Below, one piece after another: positions 2,975 to 8,215 of a DNA stretch of 33,248 nt. This DNA comes from Clostridia bacterium. Its GTDB lineage: Bacteria; Bacillota_A; Clostridia; Oscillospirales; CAG-272. How positions within the stretch are numbered: the first letter of the stretch is position 1; each line of letters starts with the position of its first letter. The stretch spans positions 1 through 33,248 of the forward strand of contig JAGBRZ010000207.1 of NCBI GenBank assembly GCA_017632155.1, in the 5' to 3' direction. The notes beneath the pieces were generated by a model. The model was not told where the DNA came from, did no database searches, and was given only the letters and a program-made list of their open reading frames with translations. A program made the translations under genes and the position numbers.

Positions 2975-5221
2975 TTATTCGACATATTCGCCAAAGATTT
3001 CAAGAATGCGTTTTTCAGCCTCGTTTGGATCGAGCTTATCTGCCGCATACGCTTTTTGTAGCAGTGAGTTGGGAAGATACTCATCATACTTATCGAACAC
3101 GGGATTTTCGGCGGACGTAATAACAGAAAGCGGATTAATTCCGTTTCGTTTAACTTCTTCGGCAAGTCCACGGGCGAGGATGCAATCATTACCCTTTTCC
3201 ATTTTGAAGGTAATGTATGCACCCGCCTCGTGCTCTATGCCACTGATCTTGTATTCATAAGCGTGAGCAGCGAGAAATTTACGGAAGGTTCTGAATGATC
3301 TCGTACCAAGCCACGGGAAGATGCACCAGGAATAACCGCCAAGGTGAACTATCGAATGATCGAGCATACCCGTATTTCTTGCAAGATGACGGGCGACCTC
3401 AAGTCTGTGGACGGCATTGGGCTTGAGATAAGGATAAACAACATCCTCCTCTAGAACACGGCGCATTCTTTGCAAAATCTCGGTATGGATCTCGCCATAG
3501 TCACCCGGCCAAGAAACCTCCATTTTTCCCTCGACGGGTTTAACGTAGATCAGTTTTCTTGCAACGTCAAGCTCTTCTACCTCCCACACTCTGCCCGCAA
3601 GCGCGAATCTGTCGCCGACGGGAGGAGGCGTTGTGATGGTTCCGATTTCTTCGGATTCGTGACGGACTGTAAAATCCTCGCTATCCTTAAATACGGCGTA
3701 AAACTTAAAGCTCGAGATCAATCTCTCGCCCGCAAGCCCGACTATCAAGCCCTTCTCTTCCGTCATCTCGATATAATCGTTTTCGATCATAGAGATCATC
3801 AAAGTTTTGTAATCCTCTTTGCTGATACCCGAAAGAGGGGGCAATGAAAGCACCCTTTCGGCGAGTGCTCTCGGAGTGAGTTCTCCGCTTGACGCAAGAA
3901 CACTTAACGTCTGATGGAACGCAAGGCTGAAGGGCATCTTCTTGATTCTCGGAGGCTCGATGAATCTTTCCTCGATATAAAGTTGAACTATCGCTATTGC
4001 ACGAAGCAATTCCCACGGGAACAGCTGAGGAAGGGGTGTGTTCGGCAATGGATTCTCCTCGCGGAAGACAAGCATCATTTCAGGAGGCTGACCACGTCTG
4101 CCCGATCTTCCAAGACGTTGAAGCAGACTTGATACCGAGTTTGGCGAAGAATTTTGAACGACTCGTTCGAGTTTGCCAATATCGATACCAAGCTCCATCG
4201 TTACAGTGGCACAGGTCACAGCGTGGATATCTTCATCCTTCATCTTTTGCTCTGCTTCTTCTCGGATTGAGGCGGAAAGATTGCCATGGTGAATAAGGAA
4301 TATATCCTTATCGCCTCGATTCTTTGCAATCTGTCGCAGAGTTGCCGTTACAAATTCCGTTTCTTCGCGGGAATTCGAGAATACAAGCGACTTTTTATCT
4401 CTTACACAATCATAGATATATTCGTATCCCGAATCGATCTGCGCGCGCTTTTTTTGGGCACCGTAATCTTCGGTTTTTTTCTCACCTTCTGCTTGCACGT
4501 GATCGTCGTTTTGTATATAAAAATGCTCCATTCCAAGACGCCAACGCAGCTTTTCGGGAGTAAGCGCAGGCACATCCGTGTCTCTGCCGCTTCCGGCAGC
4601 AAGCCAAGCAGCCGCAAGCTCGGCGTCACCGACTGTTGCAGAAAGGCCTATTCTTCTCGGGTGATGACCGATAAGTCTGCCAAGTCGGCAAAGCTGACAA
4701 ATGATCTGATTTCCTCTGTCAGAACCCGTAAGGGTATGAATCTCATCTATTATTACAAATTCAAGTCCGTGGAAGAGTCGAATTAGGTCGTTCGATCTAT
4801 TCATCAGCATTGACTCGAGCGACTCGGGTGTTATTTGCAATATTCCGCGAGGCTTGTCGAGAAGCTTCTTTTTGTGAGATTGTGCGACATCGCCGTGCCA
4901 ATGAGTTACAGGTATGCCTGAAATATCAAGCAATTCCTCTATGCGTGAAAATTGATCGTTAATAAGGCTTTTGAGAGGCGCGATATAGAGCACAGCAACA
5001 CTTTCGGGAAGATTGCCCTCAAGCATTGTGAGTATTGGGAAGAAAGCCGCCTCGGTTTTGCCAGATGCGGTTGATGAGGTAAGCAGAAGGTTGTTTTGAG
5101 TATAAAAGATCGACTCTGCAGCAAGAAGTTGGATCTCTCGCAACGCTTCCCAAGAATGCTGATAAATGTACTCACGGATATAATCCGGGAAACGTTCAAA
5201 TACACTTTCGTTTCTGTCCAT
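2975..5221 (-). CDS. Lhr-like DEAD/DEAH-box superfamily II helicase of a TerB-BrxD module
   Basis: A 748-residue ATP-dependent nucleic-acid helicase. Motifs appear in order: Walker A TASGKT (51-56), Ia APLKSL (81-86), II DEIH (159-162), III SAT (194-196), IV LVFSNSREETE (279-289), V TMELGIDIG (341-349) and VI QRLGRSGRRG (368-377). The region after about 400 has the look of the winged-helix and Lhr-core C-terminal domains (for instance FPWLGTR), without a cysteine cluster or nuclease motif. Helicases of this type accompany BrxD in BREX-like loci (BrxHI). It is the third gene of a tight operon, 11 nt after the BrxD-like ATPase gene, and ends at a terminator. Direct inference: it works with the ATPase and the TerB-domain protein on DNA; whether this is phage defence or stress repair is not shown by the sequence. 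Confidence 0.9.
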   Translation of the reverse strand: MDRNESVFERFPDYIREYIYQHSWEALREIQLLAAESIFYTQNNLLLTSSTASGKTEAAFFPILTMLEGNLPESVAVLYIAPLKSLINDQFSRIEELLDISGIPVTHWHGDVAQSHKKKLLDKPRGILQITPESLESMLMNRSNDLIRLFHGLEFVIIDEIHTLTGSDRGNQIICQLCRLGRLIGHHPRRIGLSATVGDAELAAAWLAAGSGRDTDVPALTPEKLRWRLGMEHFYIQNDDHVQAEGEKKTEDYGAQKKRAQIDSGYEYIYDCVRDKKSLVFSNSREETEFVTATLRQIAKNRGDKDIFLIHHGNLSASIREEAEQKMKDEDIHAVTCATVTMELGIDIGKLERVVQNSSPNSVSSLLQRLGRSGRRGQPPEMMLVFREENPLPNTPLPQLFPWELLRAIAIVQLYIEERFIEPPRIKKMPFSLAFHQTLSVLASSGELTPRALAERVLSLPPLSGISKEDYKTLMISMIENDYIEMTEEKGLIVGLAGERLISSFKFYAVFKDSEDFTVRHESEEIGTITTPPPVGDRFALAGRVWEVEELDVARKLIYVKPVEGKMEVSWPGDYGEIHTEILQRMRRVLEEDVVYPYLKPNAVHRLEVARHLARNTGMLDHSIVHLGGYSWCIFPWLGTRSFRTFRKFLAAHAYEYKISGIEHEAGAYITFKMEKGNDCILARGLAEEVKRNGINPLSVITSAENPVFDKYDEYLPNSLLQKAYAADKLDPNEAEKRILEIFGEYVE

Positions 5222-5232
5222 CTTGATGCCCC

Positions 5233-6585
5233 TTAAAAATCAATATCTGCGGGATCAAACTTAGATCTGGGAGTATCTGCAGGCGCGGTCGCTTCGGGTT
5301 CATCGGTTTTGAGAGTTACTGCGCTACCCACTATTGCATCAAAATTAACGTTCGGATTCTGCATAAGAATATTAAGAAGAGTCATATAGTCGCGCAGCAT
5401 TTCACGTGGAGTGATCATACTGTTCGCACCGGCTCTGTCAAGACATATCTGAACAAATTTGACTTGCTCGTCACGAGATATGCGAGGCTCCCAGTTAAAG
5501 TTTTGCGCGTGGAGCGACGTCATTCTTACCACAAGTGCCAAAAGCTCGTCATCGGAAAGTCTTGTAAGTCTGATAACGGGGCCAACGAAGTTCTTGTGCT
5601 TTTCGGATGAAAAGCGGCTGTCACAAAGTCGGCTGCGGAGTGCTTCATAGCTGAACAAACCTCGGCGCTGATCTTCGAGGAACTGAGGTGTACCTCCGAG
5701 AACGAGACCGAGATGCGGCGCTCGCCCTTGGAGAGTATCGTTGAACATTGAAAGTATCTTTTCGTAATTATTCTCACGCGACACTCTGTGAGGAATTTTA
5801 TAAAGGTTTACGCATTCATCTATGAAAACAAGCAAACCTCTGTATCCCATAGCTCGCGAAAGGGACGCCCAAAGCTTGAGGAAATCATACCAGTTATTGT
5901 CACCTATGATAGCGGATACGTCAAATCCAAGCTCGCGACGGGCTTCGGTTTTGGTTGAAAATTCACCGCGAAGCCAGCGCAAACATGCGGCGGCACGGAT
6001 ATCGTCCCCGCGTTGCGTTGCGCGGTAATATTCTCCGATAACGCGCGAAAAATCAAATCCACCAACAAGAAATTCGATCTCACGCAAGCTTTCGAAGAGT
6101 TTTGCATCAAGCTTTGCGGAAAACGTTGGTGAATCGGGTGTGATACCTTCGGAGATCAGTTGTCCTTGAAGTGAGAATACCCATTTTGCAATTATTTTTG
6201 GCATTGCGCCACCATCGGGGGCAGCCTTAGAGGCAAGGTTCTTCATAAGCTCGCGATAAGTTGCAACTCCTGCACCTCCACTTCCGTAGAGTCTGCGTTC
6301 GGGGGAAAGATCGCAATCGGCTGTGAGAAAATCGCGTTCAAGTGCATATCCTCTGATAAGCTGCATCAAGAAGCTTTTACCGCTTCCGTAGCGTCCGACA
6401 AGGAAGCGCATACTGCCGCCGCCCTCATTCATAAGCTCAAGGTCGGAAAGCAAGGCAGCTATCTCATCCTGTCTACCTATCGCAATATACGGTGCGCCCG
6501 AGCGCGGAACAACGCCCGCGGAAACAGAAGATATTAGCGAAGCAAGTATCCTCTTGGGTATAATTTGTTTCTTGTTATCTGCCAT
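5233..6585 (-). CDS. BrxD-like P-loop ATPase (BrxC/BrxD family, formerly DUF2791)
   Basis: A 450-residue P-loop ATPase. An N-terminal segment (KRILASLISSVSAGVVP, then IAIGRQDEI) leads into Walker A GRYGSGKS (64-71) followed by a hydrophobic helix; Walker B is LLVFIDEC (251-258), and an arginine-rich RLTRLSDDELLALV segment follows near 355. This arrangement matches BrxD, the ATP-binding protein of type 2 BREX. It has no added nuclease or DNA-binding domain. The start codon lies inside the upstream TerB gene (overlap 6575-6585), implying translational coupling, and the helicase gene follows after 11 nt. The last 30 residues are Pro/Ala/Thr-rich and look disordered. Family call is good; the cellular role is inferred from context. 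Confidence 0.86.
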   Translation of the reverse strand: MADNKKQIIPKRILASLISSVSAGVVPRSGAPYIAIGRQDEIAALLSDLELMNEGGGSMRFLVGRYGSGKSFLMQLIRGYALERDFLTADCDLSPERRLYGSGGAGVATYRELMKNLASKAAPDGGAMPKIIAKWVFSLQGQLISEGITPDSPTFSAKLDAKLFESLREIEFLVGGFDFSRVIGEYYRATQRGDDIRAAACLRWLRGEFSTKTEARRELGFDVSAIIGDNNWYDFLKLWASLSRAMGYRGLLVFIDECVNLYKIPHRVSRENNYEKILSMFNDTLQGRAPHLGLVLGGTPQFLEDQRRGLFSYEALRSRLCDSRFSSEKHKNFVGPVIRLTRLSDDELLALVVRMTSLHAQNFNWEPRISRDEQVKFVQICLDRAGANSMITPREMLRDYMTLLNILMQNPNVNFDAIVGSAVTLKTDEPEATAPADTPRSKFDPADIDF

Positions 6586-8215
6586 AATTCAGCGCTCCTT
6601 TCGTTTCTTCAATATAATCATCAAGCACCGCGTATCCGATTCCGACATCTTCAAGAAGGATGTCTCCACGAGTGTCCGCGGAAAGAGTATTAATCTTATC
6701 CGCGATAACGTCAGCGAGCGATCCCGCTTCTGCGGCTATTCTTCCCTGTGCTGCAAAATCTTCAGACAATGCGGCTTTGATAAACGCCGTTTCAACCTCG
6801 CCGAGGGCGGCGAAGAAATCATCTTCGGTTTGAGGGGGAGTTAATTCGGCTTCCTCTATCATAGTATTTTCTGTAATTTCTTCATTTTCCGAGAAAGCTT
6901 CGACAAGCTTTCCTGTTGTCTCCCAAGAAAGAGATTCGATCTGTGACGCAGATTCAAAGGACAGACCTTTAGATATTGGCTCATAAAGCTTTTCGTATTC
7001 GGGGATCTCGTCTTGAATGCTCGGATGGATAGTTTGAACCGGCAATTCAGAGGAGAAATATTCATCCGCAAGTTTCTTTATCTCCGCGGGTAGGGCATTT
7101 ACCGAAAGTCTTGATTTTACTCCTATATGGGCACGAATTCTGTTTTCTGCATATTTGAGAATATCTGTGACAATAAACCTTAATTCATGCGAGTGCGAGA
7201 AGGAGCAAAATTCGATCTCTATGCGTTTTTTCACGCGAGGCGTGCAGAGTGCGCCCGTATAGGAATCGCGCTGACTGCGGCTATCCTGAAGCTTCAGACC
7301 CGCGAGCTCAAAGGGATGCGAGGGATCGTTTGATCTTGAAATAATATACGCAAGCACTCCCCTCATATGCTTTTTATAAATCGGTTGATTCTCACCGGCG
7401 GCAAATTTGCTCTTCTTGTAGTTATAATTCGAGCAATGGCGTATAAGAAGCGCGGCAAATGCATTGGAATCTCCTACCGCATCTGCATAAAACTCGCGAA
7501 GTCCCGCCGTTGCGGGTAGTGAATTGCCGACCTCACCGAGAATATCGCTCGGCGGCGATACCCTCTCGATCATACACATATCGAATATCCACTCGGAAAG
7601 CTGAACGTCAAGGCGAGGATATTCATTTCTGTAATTCAACCAAAGTTCCGATAAAAGAGCAACAGAACGCTCCGCAGGGACTTTATCCGAAAGATTGATT
7701 GTTTCGTAGATCAAAAGAAGAATATAACTGTAATCAACAGAGGGATATCTTCCCGCACGAACCTCGCTTCTGAACCAAAGATAAAAGCCAAGCTGTTTAT
7801 CGTTGAGCTGAGAATACTGCGGCATATATGAGAAATACGGTTCGTGAGAAGCATTCTGCACGGACTTATTATAATAAAAAATTGCCGCTTTTCTGAATTG
7901 CTCGTAATATGGGTATGCAGTTGTCCAAGAATAAAGACGAACGTTATGGATAAGTGAGTTTTCGGGCGAATATTCAAGATCGGGGATCTTCTTTTTTTCG
8001 CTCTCTTCCGAATGCGGATGAATATATCTCTTGATGACCGATCCTTCGGGAATCTTTTCTGTCCTTGACTCCGCTTTGGCGGAATTATCGGGCACGGGGA
8101 TCTCTATTTCCGTTGCTTGCGTATGTTTATCATCAAAAGCCGAAGGAGCTCTTCGCTTCGGAACCAACGAATCTATATTCCAAAAATCATCAAGCTTATC
8201 TTTGTTTTCCGACAT
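6575..8215 (-). CDS. TerB-N / TerB-C domain protein
   Basis: A 546-residue protein, first gene of the module. Residues 1-85 are charged and look disordered. About 90-290 reads as the TerB-N domain (YSWTTAYPYYEQFRKAA, then PYFSYMPQYSQLNDKQLGFY and WFRSEVRAGRYP). About 455-545 reads as TerB-C (EVETAFIKAAL, then AEAGSLADVIADKIN and a YIEE end). I cannot find the compact TerB metal-binding domain usually placed between them, so this may be a TerB-less variant with another middle region. Ter-family proteins are linked to tellurite and phage stress responses. A strong site (AAAGGAGGAG) precedes the ATG, and a consensus promoter starts transcription about 25 nt upstream. It overlaps the ATPase gene by 11 nt. 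The role could be a sensor or scaffold for the ATPase and helicase; that is inference. Confidence 0.84.
   Translation of the reverse strand: MSENKDKLDDFWNIDSLVPKRRAPSAFDDKHTQATEIEIPVPDNSAKAESRTEKIPEGSVIKRYIHPHSEESEKKKIPDLEYSPENSLIHNVRLYSWTTAYPYYEQFRKAAIFYYNKSVQNASHEPYFSYMPQYSQLNDKQLGFYLWFRSEVRAGRYPSVDYSYILLLIYETINLSDKVPAERSVALLSELWLNYRNEYPRLDVQLSEWIFDMCMIERVSPPSDILGEVGNSLPATAGLREFYADAVGDSNAFAALLIRHCSNYNYKKSKFAAGENQPIYKKHMRGVLAYIISRSNDPSHPFELAGLKLQDSRSQRDSYTGALCTPRVKKRIEIEFCSFSHSHELRFIVTDILKYAENRIRAHIGVKSRLSVNALPAEIKKLADEYFSSELPVQTIHPSIQDEIPEYEKLYEPISKGLSFESASQIESLSWETTGKLVEAFSENEEITENTMIEEAELTPPQTEDDFFAALGEVETAFIKAALSEDFAAQGRIAAEAGSLADVIADKINTLSADTRGDILLEDVGIGYAVLDDYIEETKGALNYGR

Follow-up and report, generated by a model that had tools for sequence, protein, structure and literature searches.

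A Shango-Type sngABC Locus and Its Inheritance in a Clostridial Family

Shango is a published anti-phage system of three genes in the order sngA-sngB-sngC; the portion available of PMC10250203 reports that it inhibited phages in Pseudomonas and cites an earlier report from E. coli. No published mechanism of Shango was found in the literature search, which turned up a single paper testing the system and many naming it, bioRxiv preprints lying outside its reach. Type 2 BREX contains a related pair, BrxD and BrxHI, a homologous ATPase and Lhr-like helicase that are also tightly linked, and proteins carrying TerB_N and TerB_C domains occur in the Ter stress systems. In this study a 33,248-nt stretch of a Clostridia bacterium genome (assembly GCA_017632155.1, contig JAGBRZ010000207.1; hereafter the window) was analyzed, in which a first-pass annotation made from the sequence alone had described a TerB-N/TerB-C gene, a BrxD-like ATPase gene and an Lhr-like helicase gene as a candidate defence or DNA-processing system. 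The triad is almost certainly a Shango-type SngABC system, and its main type is mostly vertically inherited in the family of Clostridia to which the closest genomes belong. The proposal of a defence system stands in so far as the triad belongs to a published anti-phage kind, which also means that the kind is not novel.

Identity of the Three-Gene Locus

The locus consists of three genes:

8215–6575, minus strand: gene 1, sngA-type; open reading frame (ORF) of 546 amino acids (aa) with TerB_N and TerB_C domains
6585–5233, minus strand: gene 2, sngB; ORF of 450 aa, AAA+ ATPase of the Pfam BrxC_BrxD family
5221–2975, minus strand: gene 3, sngC; ORF of 748 aa, superfamily 2 Lhr-type helicase

The ORFs confirmed the co-orientation and close coupling described before, with an 11-nt overlap of sngA and sngB (6575–6585) followed by an 11-nt gap between sngB and sngC (5222–5232). 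The triad was found again in all four loci of the closest genomes, so that its arrangement is not due to chance. The PADLOC profiles of SngA, SngB and SngC matched genes 1, 2 and 3 at 3.8e-42 (143.6 bits), 7.9e-160 (530.7 bits) and 3.9e-239 (794.1 bits), respectively, whereas the BrxD profile gave 159.6 bits for gene 2 and the BrxHI profile 414.2 bits for gene 3, leads of 371 and 380 bits for the Shango profiles. In addition, gene 2 remained below the NCBIfam BrxD equivalog cut-off (157.6 vs. 350 bits). These leads, together with the missed cut-off, therefore identify a Shango locus. Pfam searches of the triad assigned TerB_N (4.1e-10) and TerB_C (1.5e-6) to the first gene, as well as BrxC_BrxD (1.2e-152), DEAD and Helicase_C, so that all the TerB and BrxD-family domains named in the first-pass annotation were recovered. 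Its description of the ATPase as BrxD-like holds at the superfamily level only, since the protein is SngB and not BrxD itself; the helicase, likened to that of type 2 BREX, is a homologue of BrxHI with an Lhr fold but is matched best by the SngC profile.

The homology of SngB and SngC to BrxD and BrxHI, and the published phylogeny that places SngC with BrxHI, DruE and DpdJ (PMC12278908, in the part available), would also be expected of a decayed or minimal remnant of type 2 BREX joined by a TerB protein. Such an origin is, however, extremely improbable: the profile scores do not support it, and no further BREX family (PglX, PglZ, BrxC, PglW) was recognized by Pfam among the 33 scanned proteins of the window; the first-pass annotation had likewise seen no BrxA/B/C, PglX or PglZ. 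The SngB tree of 95 sequences described below was rooted on a BrxD and hence is no independent test of this origin.

Five neighbourhoods on plasmids were viewed. In three of them, from Paenibacillus, Klebsiella and Aeromonas, a TerB_N gene, an ATPase gene and a helicase gene follow each other in the same order as here; in that of Burkholderia the ATPase and the helicase alone were annotated, and the fifth was a BREX locus. The present form differs from known Shango in being chromosomal, near-core and mostly vertical, with genes that are scattered in some relatives.

As a separate observation, a cyanobacterial plasmid (L260:5192-11543) carries pglZ (annotated BREX-6), brxD and a DEAD/DEAH helicase gene in a row, the BREX counterpart of SngB-SngC.

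Prevalence, Dispersal and Descent

The closest genomes are metagenome-assembled genomes of gut Clostridia from goat, yak and dairy cattle, and 295 genomes of their family were sampled. SngB was detected in 204 of these (every listed best E-value below 1e-60), SngC in 203 (E ≤ 1e-60), recA in 272 and the CRISPR gene cas1 in 44. Both SngB and SngC were carried by 195 genomes, SngB alone by nine, SngC alone by eight and neither by 83. SngB was present in 12 of the 13 genomes of the genus of G002 and, at E ≤ 1e-60, in 41 of 197 genomes of the order and 15 of 196 of the class, G002 included. With 204 genomes against 272 for recA, SngB does not occur in all relatives, and the triad is not the universal core set that the first-pass annotation had considered as an alternative. 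Absences are inflated by missing contigs, because 14 of the 20 listed genomes without recA do carry SngB. On a recA tree of 80 genomes, drawn from the 272 in which recA was matched and covering all 27 listed ones without SngB and SngC, presence changed 15 times; 1000 shuffles gave 22.7 changes on average and never fewer than 17. Absence was clustered, with several small clades wholly devoid of both proteins besides scattered single absences, and appears to reflect clade losses plus incomplete assemblies.

For 114 of the 195 genomes with both proteins the two places were listed; SngB and SngC were within 6 kb in 87 and on different contigs in 26, and in G291 they were 105 kb apart on the same contig. 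The 26 include possible assembly breaks, such as G257 with SngB at a contig edge, and the firm unlinked cases are G291 and interior placements such as G022. In nine of 44 closely read family loci SngC did not adjoin SngB, and it was found elsewhere in eight of these nine genomes (in pieces in G114); G052 gave a weak SngC match only (3.5e-5). In L062 (G066) two unrelated ORFs separate sngA from sngB, which are divergently oriented on opposite strands, and sngC is on another contig. SngA, sought in these 44 loci only, was found in 43, the exception (L045) being near a contig end. The loci used for synteny and trees were drawn from the better matches (SngB 55–98% identical to that of the window), and places were listed for 150 of the 204 SngB-bearing genomes, down to 56% identity, so that divergent SngB copies are under-sampled. 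That about two-thirds of the sampled genomes keep SngB and SngC, under selection like that on core genes and even with a broken operon, suggests that the parts are needed together; being kept after the operon was broken up, they are therefore probably selected as a set, which is the strongest new result of the analysis.

The triad is flanked by nrdR and pyk beyond sngC and by ireB and ribF beyond sngA. The order nrdR-sngC-sngB-sngA-ireB was retained in L001, L002 and L003 of the four closest loci, L004 stopping within sngC, and L063 and L081, which are more distant, have it too.

Descent was compared with rpoB in 28 genomes, all with linked triads of the main type (30 were queried, and G004 and G044 were dropped for fragmentary rpoB). 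The SngB tree had 18 of 25 splits in common with rpoB (mean 0.25, maximum 3 with shuffled labels), and all 12 of its supported splits agreed, with none in supported conflict. The SngC and SngA trees had 17 and 14 of 25 splits in common, with agreement for 13 of 15 and 13 of 17 supported splits, respectively. Mean identities in these genomes were 0.75 for rpoB, 0.69 for SngC, 0.65 for SngB and 0.37 for SngA. The ratio of nonsynonymous to synonymous substitution rates (dN/dS) against the closest locus, L001, was 0.011 for sngB, 0.016 for sngC and 0.038 for sngA, and 0.012, 0.021 and 0.070 for the neighbours nrdR, pyk and ireB; sngB and sngC are constrained like the neighbouring core genes.

These data bear on the proposal that the triad is a recently acquired defence cassette which stands by chance among housekeeping genes. 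SngC has mobile relatives elsewhere, on 636 plasmid records that come chiefly from Klebsiella and Salmonella, none reaching 60% identity; 514 of these records are predicted to be conjugative. In addition, the copies of two family members, G019 and G021, look laterally acquired. Against this, the nrdR-ireB gene order was retained in the five loci named above, and in the 95-sequence tree the 44 SngB proteins examined from the family formed one group without outsiders, albeit with a node support of 0.30 and with all of them selected among good matches. The proposal is largely refuted because SngB within the genus is congruent with rpoB, and it is considered highly unlikely.

In L287 (G019) and L288 (G021) both SngB and SngC are divergent (44–50% identity to the window), a pattern that would fit loss of the core type and acquisition of a different one.

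A serious rival to defence, considered possible though somewhat doubtful, is a housekeeping complex for DNA maintenance, in which SngABC would serve as helicase, loader and DNA-binding adaptor at replication forks or in repair, the defence that Shango provides elsewhere being a by-product of this activity or a mobile derivative. The near-core prevalence, the vertical descent of the main type, the purifying selection, the housekeeping neighbours and the co-retention of SngB and SngC past operon break-up, including the 105-kb separation in G291, are all in agreement with it. However, 83 of the 295 family genomes (some of them incomplete) lack both proteins, and SngB and SngC are not essential, because the recA tree holds several small clades in which no genome has either. 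Moreover, SngB is patchy in the class, SngC has relatives on plasmids, and the sole published phenotype found, in the available part of PMC10250203, is anti-phage.

Protein Features and Proposed Function

The features to which the functional assignments refer are:

6373–6396, minus strand: Walker A motif of SngB, GRYGSGKS, residues 64–71; G64, G67, G69 and K70 invariant in 26 SngB rows
5815–5826, minus strand: Walker B motif of SngB, FIDE, residues 254–257; D256 and E257 invariant in 26 rows
5236–5262, minus strand: C-terminal tip of SngB, KFDPADIDF, after a variable linker
5048–5071, minus strand: motif I of SngC, TASGKTEA, residues 51–58; invariant in 38 rows
4736–4747, minus strand: motif II of SngC, DEIH, residues 159–162; D159, E160 and H162 invariant in 38 rows
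6578–6835, minus strand: probable winged helix at the C-terminus of SngA, residues 461–546, overlapping TerB_C

To judge from the sequences, the ATPase motifs of SngB and the helicase motifs of SngC are intact. A structure model of SngC fitted Lhr helicase across the whole length, and the Pfam match of SngC to the Lhr winged helix was under its cut-off. SngC differs from the Lhr helicase of Mycobacterium (PDB 5v9x) in that its gene shares an operon with sngA and sngB and its top PADLOC profile is SngC.

SngB of Clostridia and their relatives ends, past the variable linker, in a conserved acidic-hydrophobic tip that recalls the end of the SSB tail. The pattern [DE][FIL]x[LIVFM]-COOH, picked post hoc from an alignment already viewed, was found in 72 of 81 SngB proteins, compared with means of 0.28 of 41 and 0.63 of 40 for shuffled tails. 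SngB of Klebsiella (FKL), Aeromonas (FQLS) and Burkholderia (FKL) does not fit it, the proteobacterial tail being a related FxL, and the single BrxD viewed ends in VVEF, outside the pattern. The PF ending of SSB was absent from all 43 SngB proteins checked for it.

The TerB_C match of SngA lies narrowly over its Pfam cut-off (28.9 vs. 26.3 bits), and a structure model indicates that the protein probably ends in a winged helix. The TerB core PF05099, listed for Shango in the available part of PMC10952713, was detected neither in SngA of the window nor among the 25 of 26 families listed for 61 homologues, and was found in just one of three plasmid SngA proteins. SngA has both flanking domains of the Ter proteins, but it differs from them in that no TerB core was detected, and no other Ter gene was found among the scanned window proteins. 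Its length of 546 aa compares with 769, 799 and 573 aa in the plasmid Shango loci of Klebsiella, Aeromonas and Paenibacillus, respectively.

A middle region of SngA, residues ~239–370 (window ~7106–7501), is strongly conserved and has no Pfam family.

The explanation favoured, with modest confidence, is that of a complete Shango-type SngABC system which has become a mostly vertical, near-core chromosomal part in this clostridial family and which may act as a DNA-surveillance helicase complex with defence as its likely role. The profile matches, the published phage inhibition, the intact motifs, the whole-length Lhr fold, the prevalence in the family, the retention of unlinked genes, the purifying selection and the agreement of SngB with rpoB speak for it. 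SngA would bind DNA or a DNA-protein structure through its modelled C-terminal winged helix and helical domains, and the AAA+ ATPase SngB would spend ATP to place or activate SngC, its acidic-hydrophobic tip possibly docking a partner. SngC, as its Lhr-like fold and motifs suggest, would unwind or strip DNA. The result would be the block to phage or other invading DNA that is published for Shango, achieved through remodelling instead of cutting or via a recruited host nuclease.

Several results weigh against this explanation. Near-core, dispersed genes are atypical for a defence cassette, and no defence genes were seen next to the triad within the window by Pfam or in the PADLOC scan of 10 neighbours. 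Two of the 15 supported SngC splits and one of the 17 supported SngA splits conflict with rpoB. SngB of G019 and G021 is 48% and 45% identical and groups with other lineages, and therefore lateral transfer occurs too. SngA has diverged: in alignment it is 15% identical to two plasmid-borne SngA proteins of Gammaproteobacteria and 24% identical to that of Paenibacillus, and a homologue profile of the window SngA found the Paenibacillus protein alone among those three.

A bolder and rather unlikely version is that SngABC in this family is a core genome-maintenance machine, in which an AAA+ loader with an SSB-like tip sets an Lhr-type helicase on stalled or foreign replication intermediates read by the winged-helix TerB protein, with mobile Shango as its transferred form. 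If so, Shango immunity would treat phage replication as a damaged fork. While the kind of system is known, no description of its core-like, mostly vertical and partly dispersed form was found in the literature search; the available part of PMC13356809 mentions Shango in rumen genomes without such a form. For a defence system, core-like inheritance is unusual, and it may point to a deeper function in the care of DNA, raising the question of whether a so-called defence system is also a standing part of chromosome care. The family offers a deep natural alignment for structure work.

Expression Signals and Neighbouring Genes

Two candidate expression signals border the operon:

8275–8247, minus strand: sigma-70-like promoter of the operon, TTGACA-17-TATAAT (12/12 consensus match only)
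2970–2940, minus strand: intrinsic-terminator-like hairpin directly after sngC (13 pairs, 7 of them G-C, then a T-rich tail)

The promoter match ends 31 nt ahead of the sngA start codon. The scanned region held 18 promoter-like and 10 terminator-like sites, all being consensus matches only; shuffles gave 12.6 (standard deviation 3.4) and 7.1 (standard deviation 2.7), respectively. Between nrdR and the terminator of sngC, about 945 bases (1995–2939) contain no convincing gene; a 125-aa ORF in this interval (2097–2474) had no Pfam match.

In the PADLOC scan of the 10 neighbours, only two proteins were hit: the sigma factor by MzaA (9.2e-19) and a histidine kinase by PDC-M43B (1.8e-7), both of which look like generic similarity. 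The window does not look like a defence island, and its other Pfam-matched genes are ordinary cellular ones, for example radA, radC, guaB, pgi, galE and the genes for ribosomal protein L19 and a sigma factor.

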